The position numbers and the translations under genes are program-made. Below the pieces are notes generated by a model, which was not told the DNA's origin, searched no databases, and worked only from the letters and a program-made list of their open reading frames with translations. From Thermobifida halotolerans (GTDB lineage: Bacteria; Actinomycetota; Actinomycetes; Streptosporangiales; Streptosporangiaceae), in contig NZ_CP063196.1 in assembly GCF_003574835.2 (NCBI RefSeq), positions 4,898,001 to 4,962,000 on the forward strand: a stretch of 64,000 nucleotides of DNA. The letters run 5' to 3'. Positions 244 through 18,150 of the stretch are shown here, piece after piece (position 1 is the stretch's first letter; the number at the start of each line of letters is the position of its first letter).

Positions 244-405
244 ATGGATACCGTGACAATCACGGCCGCAGGACAAGAGTCCGTTATCGACATTCCCCTG
301 CCCACCGAAGCCTGGCACGAGACCGTGGACGAGTCGGTCCAGTTCGAAGTGCAGCAGGCGTCCCTCGCTGAAGGCCACTTCGGAACCAACTTCCGTCGCT
401 GCTGA
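244..405 (+). CDS. Putative RiPP precursor peptide (53 aa, C-terminal Cys)
   Basis: This is the first gene of a tailoring-enzyme operon, a 53-residue acidic peptide ending in FGTNFRRC. The ATG at 244 is preceded by AGGGAG with 6-base spacing. In-frame starts further upstream add a Cys/Pro-rich segment without a Shine-Dalgarno and are less likely. Residues 11-35 are acidic with DIPLP and hydrophobic positions, as expected of a leader. The likely core is the last 10-15 residues (from about ASLAEG or GHFG to RRC), which contain the only Cys, at the very C-terminus, and one Asn. The role is inferred from size, position and the downstream YcaO, radical SAM and oxygenase genes. I do not recognise the family. 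The cleavage site is unknown, as no peptidase gene is visible. Confidence 0.7.
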   Translation: MDTVTITAAGQESVIDIPLPTEAWHETVDESVQFEVQQASLAEGHFGTNFRRC

Positions 406-427
406 TCGCTGAGGGCGGCGGACGGTG

Positions 428-442
428 CCTCGCAAAGCGAGG
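428..442 (+). terminator. Small hairpin between precursor and first tailoring gene
   Basis: CCTCGC (428-433), loop AAA, GCGAGG (437-442), with further imperfect flanking pairs. It lies 22 bases after the precursor stop and about 60 bases before the next start. There is no T-run, so it may be a partial attenuator or an mRNA-stabilising structure that favours precursor expression over the enzymes. Function is inference. Confidence 0.35.
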
Positions 443-502
443 TGTCGTACGCCGTCCTAGGCATGGAACCGGCTTCATCGGTGCCAATGGGTCCGACCCG
501 AC

Positions 503-1312
503 ATGCGGGGAGCGATGGGATTAGCGGGTGACGTAAGTTTTGTGCTGGCCAAGGCGAAGCAGGCCAGGCGCCGACGAATATCACCAGGACTGACGGAGGA
601 CAAGCATGTCCTCAAGATGCTTCTCCGTGATGGCATCGTGGTCATTCCACAGTTTTTGGATATCGAGACCGTGCGCGCCATCGCAGAAGAGACGCACAGC
701 AGTACGGATCTGCTGGCCGATGCCCTACACCCAGACATTGTGAAGCGGAACGCGCGGCGGTTGCTTCTCAATCCGCGCAAACATGTCCCCAGTTCGGTGC
801 GGGTATTCGACGACGGGCGGATCCGGAACCTAGCGAGAGCGTACCTTTCGCCCGAAGCGGTGCCCGACAGGGAGGCAGTCCAGGTCAAGAAGGGAGTCGG
901 AGAGCAGAGTATTGTCGATTTTTACCACATCGACGAGTGGCGTCCGCTGCTCTCCGTCTTCTTTTACCTGACGGACGTCGGCTCCGATAACGCCCCGATG
1001 GAATACCTTGTCGGCAGTCACCGTGGGGCTCTGTGGAGAGCCCGACTCGAACAGGACTTTTTTGAGTACTACCGCAAGGATGCTCAGGGCCGATACGCCA
1101 ATGAGGAGAGCGCGTATGCTGGCTGCATACTTCCGACACAGGCGAGGCGCCTTCGTGAGCGCTATAAATGGCGATCGATGTCCTGCGAGGGCGCGGCGGG
1201 CACCCTGGTCATCTTCGACAACCTCGGTCTGCATAGAGCCCGGCCGCTGAAGGCTGGCACACGACTGCTGCTGTCGGCGTACTGGCAGTTGCCGGACGGA
1301 GATATGGAGTGA
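503..1312 (+). CDS. Phytanoyl-CoA dioxygenase (PhyH)-like Fe(II)/2-oxoglutarate oxygenase
   Basis: A 269-residue protein with the facial triad of the PhyH family: H142 and D144 in FYHIDEW, H244 in NLGLHRARP, and R254 as the likely 2-oxoglutarate-binding arginine before a final LLLSAYW strand. The fold region spans about 35-262. The family hydroxylates, and sometimes halogenates or cyclises, small molecules or carrier- or peptide-bound substrates. Here it sits between a RiPP precursor and a radical SAM gene, so hydroxylation of the peptide is the most economical role. Start choice is uncertain: ATG 503 has little Shine-Dalgarno, while ATG 515 follows GGGGAG very closely. It is the first enzyme of a same-strand run reaching 5998. 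Confidence 0.8.
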   Translation: MRGAMGLAGDVSFVLAKAKQARRRRISPGLTEDKHVLKMLLRDGIVVIPQFLDIETVRAIAEETHSSTDLLADALHPDIVKRNARRLLLNPRKHVPSSVRVFDDGRIRNLARAYLSPEAVPDREAVQVKKGVGEQSIVDFYHIDEWRPLLSVFFYLTDVGSDNAPMEYLVGSHRGALWRARLEQDFFEYYRKDAQGRYANEESAYAGCILPTQARRLRERYKWRSMSCEGAAGTLVIFDNLGLHRARPLKAGTRLLLSAYWQLPDGDME

Positions 1313-1403
1313 ACGGGCCGGATGGCTTGGACATTCCCAATGACGGCCAGTGACGTGAGCAGCGTGCTGGCGTAGATGCAGCGCCCGACAGGAGCGGACT
1401 GAC

Positions 1404-2606
1404 ATGGGGACCACCGAATCTCACGACTCGGACGGACAACTCCGGCAGAAGCTGATCAACCGGATCACTCGCCGAGCATGGCTCGACAAGGATTTCCGGC
1501 AGCTTCTCATCGATGATCCGCAGGCGGCAGTGCTGACAGAGTTTGGCGAGATTCCCGCCTTGATCCGAGGTTTCACGGTCCGCCCCGCGCCGGTCGATCG
1601 GGCAGCCCTGCGCCCCTTGGAAGGACGTCGGACTCTGCGTATCAAGCCGAAGCCCGGCGGTCGCCCGATTAGCGTCGTGCTGCGCCACTTCCTTGGTGAC
1701 CAGGAGCTGATCGTTGTCCTCTACACTCGGCGGTGCGCCTTCAGTTGCTCCTTCTGCACCCTGCCGTCAGCCGGGGCGATCACGGACGTGAAGACGGAGG
1801 AGATAGCGGCCCAGTTTGGAGCAGTGAACGACTTCGTCCGGGCGAAGGCGAAAGGCGACGTCACACGGGTCGCCCTCGGCAATGAGGGTTCCATACTCGA
1901 CGAACGCACCCTCCCCGTGGACCAGTTGCACATGGTGATGGCTGCGGCGCGCAGCCTGCCCGGAGTCCGGGAGATCGTCCTGGAGACCAGACCTGAATTC
2001 GTCACCTCCACGGTGCTCGATACGGTCGACTCGCTCAGGGGCGACTGTTCCGTGACACTGAAGATCGGCTTGGAAAGCAGTGACGGCCATCTACGGAACG
2101 GCATCCTGGGAAAGCGCATGTCCTTGCTGGATTTCGAGGACGCCGTGCGCCGCGCGGGCACATTCGGCTATGCGCTGGAAAGCTACGTCCTGCTCAAATC
2201 GCATCCGCACCACAGTGACACGCAGGCGCGACAGGAGACCATCAAGACATGTGAGTACGTCAAACAGGTGTGTGCGGAACACACGGTTCCGCTGACCCTG
2301 CGCGTCAACTCCATGTACATGGCCGCCGGTTCGCGGTGGGCTTCCGAGGCCGAAGCCGCCGGGTGGCACCCGCCGTCGGTCTTTGACGTGGCAGAGGTGA
2401 TGTGGGCAGTCCGAACGGACCAGGTACGTGTCTTCGCCGGTGTCTCCGAGGAGGGTCTGGCCACCCAGAACGGGCACTTCGTCGCCCGCGACGACTTCGA
2501 GCCGTGGGCACTGGACGCTCTGGTGAAATACAACGCGACCGGTGACCTGGAGTACCTGAGGCAGGTCGCCCTCTTCAGAGATCAACGGTTCGGAGGCGAC
2601 GCTTGA
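1404..2606 (+). CDS. Radical SAM enzyme with N-terminal NHLP-like domain
   Basis: A 400-residue protein. C111, C115 and C118 in RRCAFSCSFCTLP form the CX3CX2C motif that binds the 4Fe-4S cluster and S-adenosylmethionine. The TIM-barrel region (about 100-340) carries GNEGSI, an ETRPEF strand and KIGLESS, resembling the Elp3/YhcC-like branch more than SPASM peptide maturases, and I see no C-terminal SPASM cysteine cluster. Residues about 12-58 (RRAWLDKDFRQLLIDDPQAA, then a Phe-Gly-Glu-Ile-Pro turn) read like the nitrile hydratase alpha/NHLP leader family normally found in RiPP precursors. AGGAGC precedes ATG 1404. The TGA overlaps the next start. It probably modifies the 53-residue peptide; the chemistry is unknown. 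Confidence 0.85.
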   Translation: MGTTESHDSDGQLRQKLINRITRRAWLDKDFRQLLIDDPQAAVLTEFGEIPALIRGFTVRPAPVDRAALRPLEGRRTLRIKPKPGGRPISVVLRHFLGDQELIVVLYTRRCAFSCSFCTLPSAGAITDVKTEEIAAQFGAVNDFVRAKAKGDVTRVALGNEGSILDERTLPVDQLHMVMAAARSLPGVREIVLETRPEFVTSTVLDTVDSLRGDCSVTLKIGLESSDGHLRNGILGKRMSLLDFEDAVRRAGTFGYALESYVLLKSHPHHSDTQARQETIKTCEYVKQVCAEHTVPLTLRVNSMYMAAGSRWASEAEAAGWHPPSVFDVAEVMWAVRTDQVRVFAGVSEEGLATQNGHFVARDDFEPWALDALVKYNATGDLEYLRQVALFRDQRFGGDA

Positions 2607-3199
2607 CAACAAAACCGAACCCCGATCACCGGGGCCGCTTCGACGGTCACCTCAAAGACATGGGAGCGGTACCGCCGAGCCTCTTCCAAGACCTGCGCGA
2701 TCGAGTCAACTCATCGGTCTGCGAGTGGCCACAAACCGGTACGAAATTCACGCAGGCCATCAGCGGCCTGGACAACATCGCACTCCTGTTCCCAGCGAAT
2801 TATCCGGCATCACATCTGGACTCTCGACCCACCGAACAGTGGAGTCACTGGCAAGACTGCGTATCGCCGCTGATCGGCTTCGTTGCCGCTCGGCTCCGTC
2901 TCGGCGCCTACGAGCCGGCGAAAGTACTTCTCTCCCGGCTCCGGGCCGGTGCTGTGATCGCCGAGCACATCGATCTGAACCCGTCCTCGCAGGTGCCCCA
3001 CAAGGTCCACATTCCGATCATCACGTCTCCTCTCGTGGCATTCACCGTGGAGGACGACGAGTACCACCTGCGACCCGGCCGGGCATACGAGCTGAACAAC
3101 CTGCGAAGGCACGCTGTCTACAACCGTGGGGAGACCGACCGCATACATCTGATCATCGAGGTGTATCCCACCTCCGGGGCGAGCCGTCCGGCCCAATAG
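2603..3199 (+). CDS. Aspartyl/asparaginyl beta-hydroxylase-like 2OG oxygenase
   Basis: A 198-residue protein with the double-stranded beta-helix of AspH-type oxygenases. H122 and D124 (AEHIDLNP), H170 (RRHAVYN) and R180 (DRIHLIIEVY) are the probable iron ligands and 2-oxoglutarate arginine. Family members hydroxylate the beta-carbon of Asp, Asn, His or Arg in peptides, cofactors or free amino acids. The candidate core contains Asn, Arg and His, so several targets are possible. Translation probably starts at TTG 2603, which overlaps the radical SAM stop codon and follows GGAGG with 7-base spacing, indicating translational coupling. It is the second 2OG oxygenase of the operon. Confidence 0.8.
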   Translation: MTTKPNPDHRGRFDGHLKDMGAVPPSLFQDLRDRVNSSVCEWPQTGTKFTQAISGLDNIALLFPANYPASHLDSRPTEQWSHWQDCVSPLIGFVAARLRLGAYEPAKVLLSRLRAGAVIAEHIDLNPSSQVPHKVHIPIITSPLVAFTVEDDEYHLRPGRAYELNNLRRHAVYNRGETDRIHLIIEVYPTSGASRPAQ

Positions 3200-3203
3200 C
3201 GCG

Positions 3204-5177
3204 ATGGAAGTGAGACTCGCGCCGGACGTGGACATCTTCATGGTGGACCGGACGCTGCTCCTGCACCGCCAAGGCCGCGCGTTTGTCCGGATCCCCGCGA
3301 CGCCATCCGCACTGACCGCCGCAGCCCGTCTCAGCGGTGTCCCGTCGTGTCCGGCACCAGACATCAGCTCCACCGGCGGCAGTGGGAGGGCAGGGGCGAT
3401 GGTCACCTCGGTACTCGACAAGGCGGGCCTGCTCGAATGGGGACCAAGGCCGAGCGGAGTCTCGAACTCCCCGCAGAACACCAAGGACAGCGCGCCTCGG
3501 TTCGGTCGAGCGTGCATCAAGCGGATGCGCATCAGCGGCAGCGACGCGCAAGCCTCAGAACCTGTCGTTTTCGTGGTGGAGAGCTGGGCCGATCTGGCGC
3601 TGTTCGATCCGTCAGCCGTTCCCGTCGGCAGACCGTGGGCCGTCTGCCGCGTTCGGGCCGGTACCGTGCAGATCTCCTCGCTGCTCCAACTACCCGAACC
3701 CACCATGTGCTGGGAGTGCCTGCTCGGCCGTCTACTCGGCCACGACGATCTACTCCGTGCGATCTGGCCCCGTCTCTCCAGCGGTGCCTGTGTGCGACTG
3801 ACCGCCGGGGGCATGCCATCGGAAGAAACCATGAGGCTGGTCCGATCCGCACTGCGATCGGTCACCGCCGATGCGTGTCCTGGCATCCTGCGCCTGGACG
3901 TCGGAGAGGAAGCCTCCGCGTTCCTCCCCGTTTCACCGTACGCCACCTGTCGGCACGGTCACCGATACGACAGGAGTTGGCGGTCGTCGGCCGGACCTGG
4001 GAGCTGTGCCGACCCGACCAAGGGACTGACGCGGGCGCGCCTGCGGTTGGAACCGTTGACCGGGCCGGTCACCGGACTGATCGAGCCAGCACGGACCGTC
4101 GCGGACCTGGATCTGCCGATCCATGTGGCCACTGTGCGCTACGCCGACGCCAGCGGTGAGGGCTCGACCGTAGCGGTGCACCCGGACGGATCGATCACTC
4201 ATGACTCAAGACTGCGAAGGGAGGCGTTCGGCAGCGGCCTGACAGCGGAGCAAGCCAGAGTTCGCGCTGGTCTCGAAGGTCTGGAACGGTACTGCTCCGT
4301 ACAGCAGGCGCACGATCCTCTTCTCCTTCGTGAGAGAAGTCTGGCAGACCAGGCGCACCTGTGTCCGGAGCGGAACATCGTCGTGCCAGCCGGCCCGGAC
4401 CTCGGGTGCTGCGCCGAGCAGGAATGGGTTCTGTGTACCCCTCTGGAAGGCATGTCGGCCGTCGCGGTTCCGGCGGCGATGTGTTTCCATCGAGCGGCGC
4501 GTCCAGCGATCTCCGGAGGCACTGGAATGGCGCTGGGGGAGACGCCCGAGGACGCCGTTGTCACGGGCTTCCTGGAATATCTGGAGCGGGAGGCGGTCAA
4601 CAGGTGGTGGCGGCAAGGGCCGGGGGCCGATCGGATCCGCCTTGACCTGGTCGCGGACGAACTCGTGGAAATCATGGTGTCGTACCACCGGGAGCGTGGG
4701 AGATCACTGTTCGCGCTCCGGGTGCCGCCGCCGATGCCGGGCATCGAGGCTGTTGTCGCCGTGTCCAGCCTGTCGCAACGCGGATTTCCCCTACTGGGCA
4801 TGGGGGCGGGCTTCACGTTGACGACAGCGGCGGCAAAGGCCCTGCGCGAGGTAGGTCAGGCACTCGCCTTCGAGCAAGCCGAAAGGCGGAAGTGGGCCTC
4901 GGTCCCACACTCGGCTGTGCGATGGCTCGCCGATCAGGCCACGGCCCCGTTCAGCATGTCGGATGACGGGGGAAGCACAGTGCCCCCGGCTACGGACGGA
5001 CTGACCCGCGTGACCAACCTGTCGCGGGCAGTTGGTAGAACGCCTCTCATTCTCAACTACCAGCGACCCGAGGTGCCGTTCCCCTGCGTCCGTGTTCTGG
5101 TCCCCTCGGCGCTCGGCGACGAATCAGTTCCGTGTCGCGCGGCACCAGGGAGCGGAAGGGGAGAACTACCGTGGTGA
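3204..5177 (+). CDS. YcaO-domain cyclodehydratase with fused leader-binding/E1-like half
   Basis: A 657-residue two-part protein. Residues 1-80 look like the winged-helix leader-recognition region of TOMM partner proteins, ending LDKAGLLEWG. A degenerate ThiF/E1-like part follows, with a probable zinc site, C169 and C172 in MCWECLLG and C249 with nearby H251/H253 in CRHGH; this is a Cys/His variant of the usual tetracysteine. From about 265 the YcaO domain shows its conserved Glu/Arg ATP-site helices: GLEGLERYC, ETPEDAVVTGFLEYLERE, and ALREVGQALAFEQAE. YcaO enzymes phosphorylate backbone amides to make azolines or thioamides. No SagB-like dehydrogenase is visible, so an azoline would not obviously be oxidised. 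The C-terminus lacks a clear Pro-x-Pro-x-Pro end. The start lies 4 bases after the preceding stop. Confidence 0.85.
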   Translation: MEVRLAPDVDIFMVDRTLLLHRQGRAFVRIPATPSALTAAARLSGVPSCPAPDISSTGGSGRAGAMVTSVLDKAGLLEWGPRPSGVSNSPQNTKDSAPRFGRACIKRMRISGSDAQASEPVVFVVESWADLALFDPSAVPVGRPWAVCRVRAGTVQISSLLQLPEPTMCWECLLGRLLGHDDLLRAIWPRLSSGACVRLTAGGMPSEETMRLVRSALRSVTADACPGILRLDVGEEASAFLPVSPYATCRHGHRYDRSWRSSAGPGSCADPTKGLTRARLRLEPLTGPVTGLIEPARTVADLDLPIHVATVRYADASGEGSTVAVHPDGSITHDSRLRREAFGSGLTAEQARVRAGLEGLERYCSVQQAHDPLLLRERSLADQAHLCPERNIVVPAGPDLGCCAEQEWVLCTPLEGMSAVAVPAAMCFHRAARPAISGGTGMALGETPEDAVVTGFLEYLEREAVNRWWRQGPGADRIRLDLVADELVEIMVSYHRERGRSLFALRVPPPMPGIEAVVAVSSLSQRGFPLLGMGAGFTLTTAAAKALREVGQALAFEQAERRKWASVPHSAVRWLADQATAPFSMSDDGGSTVPPATDGLTRVTNLSRAVGRTPLILNYQRPEVPFPCVRVLVPSALGDESVPCRAAPGSGRGELPW

Positions 5178-5998
5178 AGTCCCCGGAGGTCTTCGTCATC
5201 GGCTCCTCCCGGGCCGGTACGAGCACCCTGCGCACCTACTTCGATGAGCACCCTCAACTGTTCGTGCCCGAAGTCCTGGAGCCTCGCTACCACGCAGTTG
5301 ACACCCGTGAGGCACTCCGCGGCCCGGGGGACGAGGAGATGGCCGCCGGGATGGTCGCTTCACGCGACGACTACCTGGGCCTCTTCCAGGAGTGTGCGCC
5401 GCATCAGCGTGGCGTGGAGGTCACACCGGCCTATCTGTCGTCGCGGTGTGCTGCGGAATCCATTCGGCGGACCGCTCCGGAGGCGCAGATCATCGCGATC
5501 CTTCGGCATCCGGTCGAGCGGGCGTTCTCCAGCTTTCGGCTTGAGCGACTGGAAGGCACGGAGCCGGAGAGCGATTTCAGCCGGGCGCTTGACCTGGAGG
5601 CGCAACGACGCGCCTCAGGGTGGGGTTACGTTTGGCGTTACCGTGAGCGCGGCTTCTACGGCAGACACCTGCTGCGGTACTTTCAGACCTTTGCTCCACA
5701 CCAACTGCTGGTCCTTCTGTACGACGACTGGAAGCGCGATGGCGGACACCATGTGCTTGCGGCCATCTCCGACTTTCTTGGCGTGGAGCCCTTCGGACTG
5801 ACCGGACCCGCCCGGGTGGAGAACTCCGCCTCACCCGAGCGCTTCAGAGCCCGAGGGCTCACGCCGCCGGAGTTGGACTCCGCCACTGCCCTGAAACTGC
5901 GCGATTCGTACGAATCGGACTTCGACACTCTGGAGACACTGATCCGCCGGGACCTGACGGTCTGGCGCGAATGGTCCCCGTCAGGAGCCAACGCTTAG
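5171..5998 (+). CDS. PAPS-dependent sulfotransferase
   Basis: A 275-residue sulfotransferase of the heparan-sulfate type. The 5'-phosphosulfate loop is FVIGSSRAGTSTLRTYF and the 3'-phosphate site is ILRHPVERAFSSFR. A conserved KLRDSYESDFDTLETLIR tail matches the family's C-terminal helix. It should transfer sulfate from PAPS to a hydroxyl or amine. As the last gene of the peptide operon it could sulfate a hydroxyl installed by one of the two oxygenases. GTG 5171 (or 5174, which overlaps the YcaO stop) follows GGAAGGGGAG with good spacing, so I prefer it to GTG 5132. The operon ends here, with a converging argS 175 bases downstream. Confidence 0.85.
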   Translation: MVKSPEVFVIGSSRAGTSTLRTYFDEHPQLFVPEVLEPRYHAVDTREALRGPGDEEMAAGMVASRDDYLGLFQECAPHQRGVEVTPAYLSSRCAAESIRRTAPEAQIIAILRHPVERAFSSFRLERLEGTEPESDFSRALDLEAQRRASGWGYVWRYRERGFYGRHLLRYFQTFAPHQLLVLLYDDWKRDGGHHVLAAISDFLGVEPFGLTGPARVENSASPERFRARGLTPPELDSATALKLRDSYESDFDTLETLIRRDLTVWREWSPSGANA

Positions 5999-6173: not shown

Positions 6174-8219
6174 TCAGATCTGGGGTGGGCACTCCACGTG
6201 GCACAGGCTCAGGCCGTCCGTGAGCGTGAGTTCCACCGCTTTGGTGATCAACAGCCGGAACTCGTTGGCCCGGCCGCCTTGCAGGACGGGGGCGACGGTG
6301 TAGTAGGGGTTGTAGAGAGACGCTATGCCCAGCAGGTGACGGACCAGGATGGACGGGTTGTCCTCTGCGGCGGCCTTGGCCACCTTCTCCGGGAACTCGA
6401 ACAGCCTGAGGAGCAGCAGCGCCTCCTGGGCGTCGACAGAGAAGGATGTGATATCGGCGGCCTTGGGGAGGGCTCTGCCGTAGCGGCGCAGAATCGACCG
6501 GGCGCGTACGGCGGAGTACACCACGTAGGGACCGCCGGACTTCTCGAACTCGGCGATCACCGGGGCCAGGTCCTCCTGGGGGATGGGCACAGTGCCCTTC
6601 ATGTCCTTCTTCAGGTCGTTGAAGAACACCGCCCCGACCGCGAGCTGCTGTGCCGCCTGTTCGACCTCGGCGGCACTCATGTCACTGCCGTCGGCGGTCT
6701 TGGCCCGGTAGTGCCGCACCGATTCGGCCAACAAGTCGGTGACACTGGCCACGCTGTCGCGGCTGGAGAGCTTTTTGCCGGTCTTCGCGTCGACGTAGAA
6801 GCCGAAGTAGATATGCCGGAAGTCCACCTGCCCGGGTCGCACCAGACCGAGGACCTCGGCGGCCTGGAAGAGCCGGGAGAAGTGCACGCGCTGTTCCTGG
6901 CCGACGACGTAGACGATGTCGGTGGGGTCGAAGATGTCCCGGCGCATCCGGATCGCACCCACGTCGCGGGTGGCGTAGATGCTGCGTCCGTCGGAGCGCC
7001 GCACGACCAGGCGCTCCCCTCCCGGAAGAGGCACCACGATGGCCCCCAGGTCCTTGGCGAGCTGGGTAGCTGCCTGATCCCGGGCTTCAGCGGTCGTCTT
7101 CTCAGCCTCGACCAGCCGGTCGAGTCTGGCGATCTCCTCGTCGACCATGTCCTGGGTGAGCCGGTAGGCGCGCCCGTCCTGGATGGCCTGGTCCACCACC
7201 TGGTTGCCGGCGTCGGCGTAGAAGCTCTCACCCATGGTGAAGTCGATGTCGATGTCCAGCGCCCGATAGAAGGACCGGAAGTCGTCCAGGCTCCAGCCGA
7301 CCATGCGTTCCCACAGGGCGACCTCTTCGGCGTCGCCCTCCTCCAGTTTCTGGAAGCGGGCGTCCGAAGCGGCCACGAACTCCTCGTGGGCGTTCTTCAG
7401 TTCCTCGGCGGTGGTCAGGCCGGGGAAGTAGGTGGCGATGACCTCACGGTCGGTTTCCGGTGCGGCGTCCAGGTCGACGCCTGCCTCGACAGTGCGTTCG
7501 AGGGAGCGCCGGATGGCGTAGATCGCCAGAAGCCGCTCGTTGTCGTCCATGGAGGCGGGGAACAAGTCATGGAAGCGGCGGTAGCCCTCCAGCATGAAGC
7601 CGAAACCACCGAAGTCGTTGATGTGGTTGACCCGGTAGACGAGTGCGCCGCATGCCTCGTACAGGTTGGCCAGTACGTGGCCGATCATGGTGGAGCGCAG
7701 GTGACCGGCGTGCAGTGTCTTGGCGACGTTGGGCGAGGAGTAGTCCACCACGTAGGTGCGGTCGGCCTGGCTGTCGTTCAGTCCGAACCGGTGGTCCAGG
7801 TCGACAACGGCCTGGACGCTGCTGAGGAACCAGGAGTCGGCCAGACGGACGTTGACGTAGATGCCCTTGTGCGTCACCTCGGCGACCGCGTCGCTCAACT
7901 CGGGGCCGCGCATGGCCTCGACGATCCATGGGACGTGCGAGGCGATGTACTCCTTGGCACCGACTTCCTTGAGCAGGCCGGTCACCCGGATCGCGATGTC
8001 AGCGCCCATCTTCGCGCGATCGAGGATGTCGAGTTCCCAGAGCAGCTCGGTGCGTCCCGAGCGTTCCCGCAGCGCACGGGTGATACGAGCTTTGAGGTCG
8101 GCCAGTGGGTAATCCGTCGCGGCCGGGGGAGTGGAGACCTGCCACCGCTCCTTGACGGAGTCGCGGAGCGCTTCCACCTCGTGCCTACGGGTTTCGTTCA
8201 GCTTGGCCAACTCGTTCAT
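6174..8219 (-). CDS. argS: Arginyl-tRNA synthetase, atypical
   Basis: A class I aminoacyl-tRNA synthetase that attaches arginine to tRNA-Arg. The ATG at 8219 gives 681 residues. The HIGH signature is HAGH (170-173) in SSPNVAKTLHAGHLRST, the KMSKS equivalent is KKLSSRDS, and a DALR anticodon-binding domain ends the protein (LYNPYYTVAPVL onward). It is longer than many bacterial ArgRS, with a roughly 150-residue N-terminal region ahead of the catalytic signature. Base composition and position tie it to the less G+C-rich left end rather than to the metabolic genes on its right. It may be a second, acquired copy. A role in self-protection or in supplying Arg-tRNA to the peptide pathway is speculation; the enzyme call itself is secure. 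Confidence 0.9.
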   Translation of the reverse strand: MNELAKLNETRRHEVEALRDSVKERWQVSTPPAATDYPLADLKARITRALRERSGRTELLWELDILDRAKMGADIAIRVTGLLKEVGAKEYIASHVPWIVEAMRGPELSDAVAEVTHKGIYVNVRLADSWFLSSVQAVVDLDHRFGLNDSQADRTYVVDYSSPNVAKTLHAGHLRSTMIGHVLANLYEACGALVYRVNHINDFGGFGFMLEGYRRFHDLFPASMDDNERLLAIYAIRRSLERTVEAGVDLDAAPETDREVIATYFPGLTTAEELKNAHEEFVAASDARFQKLEEGDAEEVALWERMVGWSLDDFRSFYRALDIDIDFTMGESFYADAGNQVVDQAIQDGRAYRLTQDMVDEEIARLDRLVEAEKTTAEARDQAATQLAKDLGAIVVPLPGGERLVVRRSDGRSIYATRDVGAIRMRRDIFDPTDIVYVVGQEQRVHFSRLFQAAEVLGLVRPGQVDFRHIYFGFYVDAKTGKKLSSRDSVASVTDLLAESVRHYRAKTADGSDMSAAEVEQAAQQLAVGAVFFNDLKKDMKGTVPIPQEDLAPVIAEFEKSGGPYVVYSAVRARSILRRYGRALPKAADITSFSVDAQEALLLLRLFEFPEKVAKAAAEDNPSILVRHLLGIASLYNPYYTVAPVLQGGRANEFRLLITKAVELTLTDGLSLCHVECPPQI

Positions 8220-13896: not shown

Positions 13897-14733
13897 CTAG
13901 TCGACCTGGGTGACCGGATGGTCACGCCGCTCCGGGACGGCGGGCAGCGCCGCGCGGTCGAGGGCGGAGGCGGCTTCGAGGACGAGGTCGTGGCGTCCGG
14001 CGATGAGTTCCTGGAAGCGGATCTTGGCGCGGATGAGCGGGCGGCGCAGCCGCTGGTCACGGCGGATCGCGGCGGAGAGCTTGACCGAGTCCTCGGGGTA
14101 GCGCCACCGCGCCCACGGCGAACCGGGGACCGCCAGTCGCACCGCGGCGACGATGCTGATCACGGGGACGAAGACCCCGATGATGCCGCTCCAGATCTTG
14201 CCCTTGAGGAGGCTGACCGTCGCGCCCGCGAAGTTGACCAGGATGAGCGAGGCCATTCCGGTCTGCGCGAGCGCGGCGCCCGGTGCGGTGCTCTGGAACT
14301 CGCTCCAGCCCACCGGGCGCAGACCGGTCAGCAGCAGTCCGCTCAGGGCGATCGCCACGAACACCGCGTCCACGGAGGTGCGTCCCTGCTCGGTCCAGTA
14401 CACGTCGCGCAGGTGCAGGATCAGCGCGAACTCGTCCAGCACCAGTGCGGAGCCGAGTCCGAACAGGCCCGCGGCCGTGGCGATGGTCCAGCCGCTCCGG
14501 TCGGTGATGAGCAGCCCGGCGACCCCGCCGACCAGCATGAGCGCCACTCCGAAGACGACGTGGTGGATGTGCAGGCCGCCGGGGGTGACATTGCCGGGCC
14601 ACCACCGGACCTGGGCGCGGATCATCCGCACGCTGAGGCGGATCAGCAGGAACCCGGCCACGAACGCGACAAAGAAGCTGAACAGCGGCAACCGTCCGGT
14701 GGCCACGATGTGAACGGTGAACCAATCGCTCAC
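13897..14733 (-). CDS. Multi-pass membrane protein, function unknown
   Basis: A 278-residue integral membrane protein with about seven hydrophobic segments between residues 14 and 205 and a charged cytoplasmic C-terminal tail. The motif GGLHIHHVVFG, with a following DEFALILHLRDVYW, is striking: the His cluster and acidic residues at the membrane face suggest metal binding or a membrane hydrolase fold, but I cannot name a family. GTG 14733 follows AGGAGG. It appears to head a two-gene unit with the glucokinase gene. Confidence 0.75.
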   Translation of the reverse strand: MSDWFTVHIVATGRLPLFSFFVAFVAGFLLIRLSVRMIRAQVRWWPGNVTPGGLHIHHVVFGVALMLVGGVAGLLITDRSGWTIATAAGLFGLGSALVLDEFALILHLRDVYWTEQGRTSVDAVFVAIALSGLLLTGLRPVGWSEFQSTAPGAALAQTGMASLILVNFAGATVSLLKGKIWSGIIGVFVPVISIVAAVRLAVPGSPWARWRYPEDSVKLSAAIRRDQRLRRPLIRAKIRFQELIAGRHDLVLEAASALDRAALPAVPERRDHPVTQVD

Positions 14734-14976
14734 GCATGCCTCCTAGGCCCGGGAAGGGCGCAGTCGACAACCAGGGGGAGAGGAAAGGGGGACGGCGGAG
14801 AACGAGGAACCGGCACACCTGCGGATCCGCCGAGCGGAGGGGCGCGCCCGCTCCGGACTCCTGGTGGACAGGTAGGCAAGTGTACGTTCGCCGGATCCTC
14901 TCGGACACCCGTGTCGTCCTGAGAACCTCTTGGGAGGCGCCGGGATTCCGGAAGAGTCCAGGAAGAGGGCGAGATC

Positions 14977-15028
14977 ACGGCGCTCCCTCCCCGGTGGCCA
15001 CTCCCGGCCACCGGGGAGGGAGCGCCGT
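14977..15028. repeat. Perfect 23-bp inverted repeat (strong hairpin)
   Basis: Arms 14977-14999 and 15006-15028 are exact reverse complements, separated by 6 bases (ACTCCC). There is no T-run on either side. It lies between divergently transcribed genes, where a terminator has no obvious job. It could insulate the two promoters, mark an unannotated short transcript, or be a small mobile repeat. Confidence 0.8.
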
Positions 15029-15152
15029 GGGGACGGGGCCTGCGGGCGCCGGGGGTGGCCGGGGCCGCCGTCAACTCCTCGGGCGATGCCTTGACCGAAA
15101 GAACCGAATGTCGTTCTAGTTTTTTGGGGTCCGGCTCTGTAGAGTGCGCCCC

Positions 15153-16774: not shown

Positions 16775-17698
16775 TCACCTGAGCCGGTGCCGCCGGACCG
16801 GACGCTGACGGCTCCCCGCGATGAGTGCCGCGCCGATGAGCGCCACGGCGAAGGCGATCACGGCGAACACCATCGTCTCCACACCGGTCACCGGCAGTGA
16901 CCCCCCGTCCGCCGCGGGCGGCGTCTCGGTGGGCGAGGCGGTGGGCTCCTCCGTCGGAGACGCCGTGGGCGAGCCGGTGGGCTTGCCGGTCGGTTTGCCG
17001 GTCGGTGACGCGGTCGGTTTGCGAGTCGGCTTGTCGGTGGGCCGGTGCGTGGGCCGTTCGGTGGGTGACGCGGTCGGTTTGCGGGTCGGCTTGTCGGTGG
17101 GCCGGTCCGTCGGCCTGTCGGTCGGCTTGCCCGTGGGCCGGTGCGTGGGCCGTTCGGTGGGTGACGCGGTCGGTTTGCGGGTCGGCTTGTCGGTGGGCCG
17201 GTCCGTCGGCCTGTCGGTCGGCTTGCCCGTGGGCCGGTGCGTGGGCCGTTCGGTGGGTGACGCGGTCGGTTTGCGGGTCGGCTTGTCGGTGGGCCGGTCC
17301 GTCGGCCTGTCGGTCGGCCTGCCCGTGGGCCGGTCCGTCGGCCGTCCGGTGGGCGAGTGGGTCGGCGACCCCGTGACCCCGTCCAGCCGGGTCGCCGCCG
17401 GGGGCGGCCACTGGTCGGGCCATGAGGCGTCGGGGTCGTCCTGGACCGTGGCCTCCCCGGCCAGGTCCAGTCCGGTCGGAAGGTCGGTCGTCTCCCGGGA
17501 GCAGCCCGCGGAACCCGATCCCGGGGAGGACTCGGCGAAGCACTCCCACCCGGTGACCCTCGAGGCGTCCCGGACCAGTACCGCTGACGTTCCGGCCTCG
17601 GGAGGCGGTATCGCCCGGTCCGTGTTGTGCCAGGCCAGAAGTGATATCGCGGAGAAAGCCAGGGCGGCCGACAACCCCGCCGCCACGATTCCCCTCAT
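16775..17698 (-). CDS. Sortase-anchored surface protein with Pro/Thr repeat stalk
   Basis: A 307-residue secreted protein. ATG 17698 is followed by a signal peptide (MRGIVAAGLSAALAFSAISL). A short globular part of about 80 residues has two Cys. A long stalk of Pro-Thr triplets (RPT, KPT, SPT) makes up about half the protein. It ends LPVTG, a hydrophobic helix and an Arg-rich tail, the classical sortase sorting signal. It should be covalently attached to peptidoglycan. The stalk is encoded by tandem 96-bp repeats. No sortase gene is in the window. The Thr-rich stalk may be O-glycosylated. The start is uncertain by a few codons because the GGGGGGAAGG upstream lies 12 bases away. Confidence 0.85.
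   Translation of the reverse strand: MRGIVAAGLSAALAFSAISLLAWHNTDRAIPPPEAGTSAVLVRDASRVTGWECFAESSPGSGSAGCSRETTDLPTGLDLAGEATVQDDPDASWPDQWPPPAATRLDGVTGSPTHSPTGRPTDRPTGRPTDRPTDRPTDKPTRKPTASPTERPTHRPTGKPTDRPTDRPTDKPTRKPTASPTERPTHRPTGKPTDRPTDRPTDKPTRKPTASPTERPTHRPTDKPTRKPTASPTGKPTGKPTGSPTASPTEEPTASPTETPPAADGGSLPVTGVETMVFAVIAFAVALIGAALIAGSRQRPVRRHRLR
17041..17328. repeat. Three tandem 96-bp repeats in the surface-protein stalk
   Basis: The segment beginning GCCGGTGCGTGGGCCGTTCG recurs at 17041, 17137 and 17233, exactly 96 bases apart, with near-identical sequence between. Each unit encodes 32 residues, so copy-number change keeps the reading frame and alters stalk length. Shorter Pro-Thr triplet repeats flank it on both sides. 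The sequence also leaves long open frames on the opposite strand, which are by-products. Confidence 0.9.
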
Positions 17699-18150
17699 CA
17701 GAAGACTCAACCTTCCCCCCAGGAGTGAGCGCTGCCGGTTCCACACCCGCGGGACTTTTGGGTGCGCAATCCGAACAACAATCCGTGGAGAGGAGCCCTG
17801 AAACCCGGCAGCCCGCACTCTTGGCCAACAATTGGCCTCCTCACCCCGGTTTTGGCAGGCCGATTACCCGCATGATCAGCAACCGGGGAACGCCGCCGAC
17901 CGCTGGGAGCGCGGACCCGCTGTGCACGGCTCGACCAGGTCGAGGCATCCCACGCAACCCTTTCGGAGTGGGATGCCCCGGAGTGTTGATCTTGACGGGA
18001 GCGGGCATCCAACCGCGGAAAATGGCACGCTGGTGTCAAGGTCATCTGGGCAGTGACCGAGGTTGCGCCCACCCGGAGCGTGTCGATCGTGCTCCTGCGG
18101 TCATGCCCGGCGCCGGGGACGGTCGCGGCGGAGACCCGCGGGAGGAAGGG
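17699..18150. other. Intergenic stretch with one 10-bp inverted repeat
   Basis: About 450 bases between the surface-protein start and the transaminase terminator. The only distinct element is GGCATCCCAC (17944-17953) with GTGGGATGCC (17968-17977), a perfect 10-bp inverted repeat with a 14-base loop and no T-run. No coding region is convincing. The part nearest 17700 should hold the surface-protein promoter. Confidence 0.45.

Follow-up and report, generated by a model that had tools for sequence, protein, structure and literature searches.

A 64,000-nt stretch of the Thermobifida halotolerans genome (the window hereafter; forward strand, NZ_CP063196.1 positions 4,898,001-4,962,000, from a genome of 5,506,152 bases in two contigs) carries at 244-5998 six open reading frames (ORFs), every one called on the + strand, that probably form an orphan operon for a ribosomally synthesized and post-translationally modified peptide (RiPP) built with a YcaO protein. 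The product would be an azoline-bearing, hydroxylated and sulfated peptide ending in ...FGTNFRRC. This reading draws on a coding-like 53-residue ORF with a stable hairpin behind it, on a YcaO protein whose nearest solved relatives are RiPP heterocyclases, and on AspH-to-sulfotransferase genes that overlap or nearly touch. It also draws on the pairing of AspH relatives with sulfotransferases in 2/3 plasmid records, and on a low guanine-plus-cytosine (GC) content at third codon positions that all six genes share.

A sequence-only reading of this DNA had described six tightly packed plus-strand genes starting with a 53-residue peptide and continuing with members of the PhyH, radical S-adenosylmethionine (SAM), AspH-like, YcaO and sulfotransferase families. 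The ORF positions bear out the first part of that description, and Pfam and NCBIfam models the families, with the radical SAM assignment coming through its motif and its relatives. The packing proved tight at the 3′ end, where the radical SAM and AspH-like genes overlap by 4 bp, 4 bp separate the AspH-like gene from the YcaO gene and the latter overlaps the sulfotransferase gene by 7 bp, and loose at the 5′ end, with 97 bp between the peptide and PhyH genes (a gap containing the strong hairpin) and 91 bp between the PhyH and radical SAM genes. The last overlap is given by a sulfotransferase start at GTG 5171, which lies behind AAGGGGAG; the longest ORF begins at 5132. Third-position GC is 0.70-0.78 in all six genes, which is consistent with one imported unit.

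The 53-mer looks translated, with a codon bias like that of the neighbouring genes. Its codon log-odds of 0.19 per codon is reached by 0/261 open non-coding windows of equal length, and some 70% of coding windows reach at most the same score, these windows being favoured because they were drawn from the model's own training genes. The frame stays open upstream to TTG 172, which would give a 77-aa version with a lower codon score (0.119); ATG 244 is preferred as the start because GGGAG stands ahead of it. Searched against Pfam and NCBIfam, the 53-mer stays without a match at E<=1. Among the other small ORFs from -400 to 1420, the best-scoring one, a 19-mer, reaches only 0.161. The hairpin behind the gene spans 55 nt and folds at -38.5 kcal/mol (z -6.3), a value equalled by 0/200 shuffles and matched by 36/25,578 windows of 55 nt on both strands of the whole window. 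A strong hairpin separating precursor from enzyme genes is expected where the precursor is needed in excess, and is no proof of it. As an intrinsic terminator the hairpin was rejected: a T-run behind it is absent, and the terminator scan (5 sites versus 4.0 +- 1.7 in shuffles, no excess) does not list this site. Of all 55-nt hairpins in the window the most stable lies elsewhere, at 14971-15035 (-62 kcal/mol), beside 14733-15144.

The YcaO protein falls within the YcaO superfamily (PF02624, 135.6 bits against a cut-off of 25.7). Five solved sequences match it at E<=0.01, the top three being the RiPP heterocyclases TruD, LynD and MusD (E 4.4e-19 versus TruD for the domain only, 6.4e-15 versus LynD), and hhalign ties residues 319-635 to thiazole/oxazole-modified microcin (TOMM) proteins of Streptomyces plasmids at 99.1%. 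The aligned motif positions E358, E361, E458, E461, E549 and Q552 are kept, residues which we take to have an ATP/Mg role. Judged by sequence, the protein probably works like LynD; its membership in the class of azoline-forming cyclodehydratases is not established.

Both oxygenases score above the cut-offs of their families (PhyH, PF05721, 39.8 bits against 22; AspH-like, PF05118, 42.6 bits against 22.6), and HxD...H...R, presumably the motif of 2-oxoglutarate oxygenases, is visible in each. The sulfotransferase matches Sulfotransfer_3 (PF13469) with 50 bits against a cut-off of 27, scored on the longer ORF from 5132, and the solved 3rnl at 7.2e-29. It contains the stretches GSSRAGTSTL and RHPVERAFSS, which we assume to resemble a 3′-phosphoadenosine-5′-phosphosulfate site. 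Relatives of the AspH-like protein are paired with sulfotransferases in two of three plasmid records, the third having none nearby. In L074 (3746-5638) the two are fused in one 630-aa protein (PF05118 54 bits, PF13469 91 bits), and in L075 (3174-6330) an AspH-like gene sits between two sulfotransferase genes and adjoins a TonB-dependent receptor; both records are proteobacterial plasmids. These pairs support a hydroxylate-then-sulfate pairing, a succession of steps that is uncommon in RiPPs.

The radical SAM protein carries the CX3CX2C motif and scores under the cut-off of PF04055 (21.9 against 29.5 bits). The nearest named family is RaSEA (TIGR01210), for which 74.6 bits likewise fall short of the cut-off of 212.15. 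A two-sequence profile scan of genome contigs yielded ten loci with relatives of 30-37% identity, from Actinokineospora, Waterburya, an acidobacterial metagenome-assembled genome (MAG), Saccharopolyspora, Paraburkholderia calva, Frankia, Azospirillum, Parafrankia, a deltaproteobacterial MAG and Streptomyces. In L013 and L021, unread bases leave an X in the translated radical SAM genes, one of them at a cluster cysteine. The N-terminal stretch of the operon protein is matched by five models, either of leaders of the nitrile hydratase leader peptide (NHLP) type or of nitrile hydratase alpha, none above its cut-off; the NHLP leader model TIGR03793 gives E 2.3e-5 and 24.2 bits against 50.9. This cut-off is strict, since 0/197 class genomes pass it although 23/197, own included, match at E<=0.01. 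None of the ten relatives has such a stretch in frames checked to the upstream stop. That the leader mimic is a docking device is a guess.

In the mechanism that we propose, the 53-mer would be the precursor, with its N-terminal part as leader and the C-terminal ...FGTNFRRC as core. The YcaO protein, TruD/LynD-like in layout, would activate a backbone amide with ATP and most likely convert the C-terminal Cys to a thiazoline. The two oxygenases would hydroxylate core residues, and the sulfotransferase would sulfate a hydroxyl set by one of them, most likely by the AspH-like enzyme. A further radical change would come from the radical SAM enzyme, whose leader-like stretch may dock it on YcaO, and the hairpin would keep the mRNA of the precursor more abundant than that of the enzymes. 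What the sequence shows directly is the genes with their families and motifs, the coding status of the 53-mer and the hairpin; the precursor role, the sites and order of modification, the docking and the sulfation of the peptide are parts that we infer. Table 1 gives the positions of all features.

Table 1. Features of the operon and of the gene to its right (positions in the window)
Feature	Position	Strand	Evidence
Putative precursor peptide, 53 aa, end ...FGTNFRRC	244..405	+	Codon usage, GGGAG ahead of ATG, no family match
Hairpin, 24 pairs	408..462	+	Starts 2 bases 3′ of peptide stop codon; folding energy versus shuffles
PhyH-type 2-oxoglutarate oxygenase, 269 aa	503..1312	+	PF05721, HxD...H...R
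Radical SAM protein, RaSEA-like group, 400 aa	1404..2606	+	TIGR01210 below cut-off, CX3CX2C, 30-37% relatives
NHLP-leader-like stretch, radical SAM residues 14-52	1443..1559	+	TIGR03793 and four other models, all below cut-off
AspH-like oxygenase, 198 aa, TTG start at 2603	2603..3199	+	PF05118
YcaO protein, possible E1-like front end, 657 aa	3204..5177	+	PF02624; TruD/LynD similarity; alignment
Sulfotransferase, 275 aa counted from GTG 5171	5171..5998	+	PF13469; 3rnl match
Divergent arginyl-tRNA synthetase (ArgRS), 681 aa, native argS slot, possible immunity gene	6174..8219	-	PF00750, DALR, synteny

Relatives of the radical SAM, YcaO and PhyH proteins were few in the samples searched. The larger genome searches scored a few top candidates per genome in overlapping genome samples, and relatives may be missed. 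Within that scope, relatives of the radical SAM protein at E<=0.001 numbered 9/100, own included (the best other one is 26% identical and stands beside a P450-like ORF, recognised by eye), and 3/394 class genomes, own included, had one at 1e-8. For YcaO at 1e-30 the own genome was the only one of 394 class genomes, and for PhyH at 1e-12 the only one of 345. Records of the plasmid collection with relatives came to 0 for PhyH, 2 for radical SAM, 3 for AspH, 18 for YcaO and 147 for the sulfotransferase; the 53-mer matched none among 72,556 plasmid records, even at E<=10. Viral contigs held no relative of the YcaO profile or of the ArgRS. A term search of the main text of the species' genome paper (PMC12424385) gave no hit for antiSMASH, RiPP or gene cluster.

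Several observations weigh against a RiPP operon. The YcaO protein scores 77.7 bits with TIGR03604, the model for TOMM cyclodehydratases of the SagD/LynD type, where the cut-off is 219.25. In its possible E1-like front end four cysteines (C169, C172, C249 and C268) line up with those of TOMM proteins in MAFFT only, TIGR03882 finds no match, and the hhalign match covers 319-635 alone. TOMM cyclodehydratases have a proline-rich C-terminal end, PxPxP; the operon protein ends in ...GRGELPW without the C-terminal tail of its relatives (LNPxPLFV-like ends), stopping short of it at the point where the sulfotransferase gene begins. The operon contains no protease, transporter or regulator. The ORF lists inspected by eye show no RiPP gene set beside the radical SAM relatives, and the plasmid pairs of AspH and sulfotransferase lie outside annotated RiPP loci. 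Lastly, no homologous operon turned up in the samples searched, which leaves the 53-mer without support from conservation; its precursor role is for this reason only an inferred one.

Some of these points would also suit an explanation in which a small molecule or another protein is the substrate of the enzymes, the 53-mer serves as a carrier or is a small protein of no relation to them, and the radical SAM enzyme, like its relatives outside RiPP loci, makes the core change. The neighbours of the radical SAM relatives include deaminase- and ligase-like genes (by eye or NCBIfam) and not RiPP genes, the 53-mer has no family match, and the AspH/sulfotransferase pairs occur away from RiPP loci. 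Against it, the best solved relatives of YcaO are RiPP heterocyclases, and the 53-mer has coding-like codon usage, opens the operon and has a strong hairpin behind it; we consider this explanation unlikely. As a side observation, RaSEA-like radical SAM genes of many phyla adjoin deaminase-, ligase- and carbamoyltransferase-like ORFs (partly by eye), and perhaps form a natural-product family of their own.

A RiPP operon, as the sequence-only reading had it, stands as the best reading, and the cluster itself is sound; the cyclised, hydroxylated and sulfated product remains a prediction. Of its attributes, 'cyclised' depends on a YcaO without its relatives' C-terminal tail. The same reading knew of no characterised class with this enzyme set, and the searches made of an open-access library brought up no paper on the combination of YcaO, radical SAM, PhyH, AspH and sulfotransferase. 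The hairpin, the leader-like N-terminus of the radical SAM protein and the apparent ArgRS replacement go unmentioned in it.

The operon can be set beside several known systems. With the cyanobactin-type enzymes TruD, LynD and MusD it shares a YcaO domain that keeps the motif acids, and front-end cysteines in matching places of the alignment; the similarity is weak, however, the tail of the relatives is lacking, and cyanobactin proteases are absent from the operon. The TOMM loci of Streptomyces plasmids combine a precursor, a YcaO protein (25-30% identical to the one studied here) and a two-component system. The likeness to the operon is a small ORF, which directly precedes the fused leader-binding/YcaO gene in 4/5 of the loci read (L027 lists none). 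They differ in that a histidine kinase and a response regulator follow, and no oxygenase, radical SAM or sulfotransferase gene is annotated alongside. Nearest in the literature searched are mycobacterial YcaO-TfuA loci, which a passage of PMC6511847 places near a type III polyketide synthase (PKS) and a sulfotransferase, so that YcaO and sulfotransferase share one neighbourhood as here. Those loci are of the TfuA (thioamide) type and come with a PKS, and the passage concerned does not mention PhyH, AspH or radical SAM.

To the right of the operon, and convergent to it, lies the divergent ArgRS gene. Its product scores 165.1 bits with PF00750 and 56 bits with DALR, both above cut-off, and 250.3 bits with TIGR00456, just below the cut-off of 261.65; the HIGH-like and arginine-site motifs (HAGH, YATRD and Q positions) are kept. 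It is 26-30% identical to ten ordinary ArgRS (three Thermobifida genus-mates, Frankia, Nonomuraea, Embleya, Limosilactobacillus, Acetoanaerobium, Halobacterium and Cupriavidus), the genus-mates' enzymes being 89-96% identical among themselves. The order right gene/argS/YceI is conserved in all three genus-mates, whereas in the own genome the foreign ArgRS and then the operon come after the right gene (the slot comparison sets 6174-8219 (-) of the window beside 5535-7271 of L057 in G002). Neither an ordinary argS nor YceI was found in the 76 kb examined of the own genome. The divergent gene is the only PF00750 gene found in the accessible sequence of the own genome, where a stretch not covered could hide another, and each of the three genus-mates has one strong copy. 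From synteny, the native argS was apparently exchanged for a foreign ArgRS at the same site.

The foreign type is rare, occurring in 2/316 class genomes (own included) and, among 205 family genomes, in the own one only. The other carrier, G150, belongs to the Frankia family, in which 1/35 genomes has it. G150 also holds an ordinary ArgRS (377 bits), and its foreign-type copy (L062/L063, C1:587583-591547) is split by about 1.9 kb with a transposase-like ORF (by eye); the foreign type is dispensable in G150 given the ordinary enzyme and the broken copy.

A further, tentative step, which we regard as doubtful, is that the operon product inhibits ArgRS and that the foreign enzyme next door confers immunity. 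No more probable is its detailed form, in which a sulfated end piece with Arg-Arg-thiazoline would mimic activated arginine, a deep-branching, product-proof ArgRS would have replaced argS, and the leader-like stretch would dock the radical SAM enzyme on the heterocyclase. An extra synthetase, rare and divergent, that adjoins a biosynthetic operon agrees with what is seen for the self-immunity aminoacyl-tRNA synthetases treated in a part of PMC7916415. Like those of antibiotic producers, it is divergent, has intact motifs and adjoins a biosynthetic operon; unlike them, it is an ArgRS, and the native gene is missing, not duplicated. No case of ArgRS self-resistance came up in the searches made of an open-access library. 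For albomycin, PMC9032320 has a section on self-resistance, which cites a study of two seryl-tRNA synthetases (SerRS) in the producer. Microcin C, a RiPP acting on aspartyl-tRNA synthetase according to PMC7136475, would offer a parallel only if the ArgRS reading were true. It differs in being a peptide-nucleotide and in its self-immunity, which the relevant part of PMC7916415 assigns to the inactivating enzymes MccE and MccF, with no swapped synthetase.

It is fairly likely that the ArgRS has nothing to do with the operon, the site being a recombination hot spot at which the ArgRS gene and the biosynthetic operon landed separately beside defence-like genes. Third-position GC of the ArgRS gene (0.88) lies within the host range (left flank 0.82, right flank 0.91-0.95, other site genes 0.83-0.92), in contrast to that of the operon, so that a separate arrival is possible. 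The two are transcribed towards each other and are not one transcript, and tblastn of the six operon proteins over 33 kb around the G150 gene returned chance-level matches only. The left part of the site is filled with defence-like genes, which suggests that it may be a hot spot: L002 1994-11635 (window -10006 to -365) matches defence models for AIPR/AbiU-like proteins, an AbiL-like ATPase and a Ser/Thr kinase, the kinase gene being the left neighbour that ends about 365 bases ahead of window base 1, and includes a type I restriction R subunit for which the ORF list shows no recognisable M or S partner. What a hot spot leaves to chance is the meeting of a peptide operon with so rare an ArgRS type, elsewhere a dispensable extra copy. 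Integration directed by a tRNA was rejected, with no tRNA in the window or L002. Elsewhere in the window, an ORF at 16775-17818 (-) is rich in repeats resembling RPTDRPTGKPT and ends in an LPxTG-like motif, both recognised by eye.

It is very improbable that the ArgRS serves biosynthesis by supplying activated arginine, in the way that SerRS is reported in part of PMC9032320 to provide the seryl-adenylate for assembling albomycin. Its position next to the operon and the FRRC arginines that close the 53-mer would agree with such a role, but no second ArgRS was found in the genome, so that the enzyme must serve translation, no aminoacyl-tRNA-using ligase family is seen in the operon, and the peptide already encodes the arginines.

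Should these enzymes modify the 53-mer, the product would be a RiPP with an enzyme set on which the searches made brought up no paper. If the link to ArgRS is true, a peptide antibiotic would come with a testable target and a ready immunity gene. Either way, an essential synthetase that was apparently exchanged in place, next to a biosynthetic operon, makes a clear and checkable genome event.

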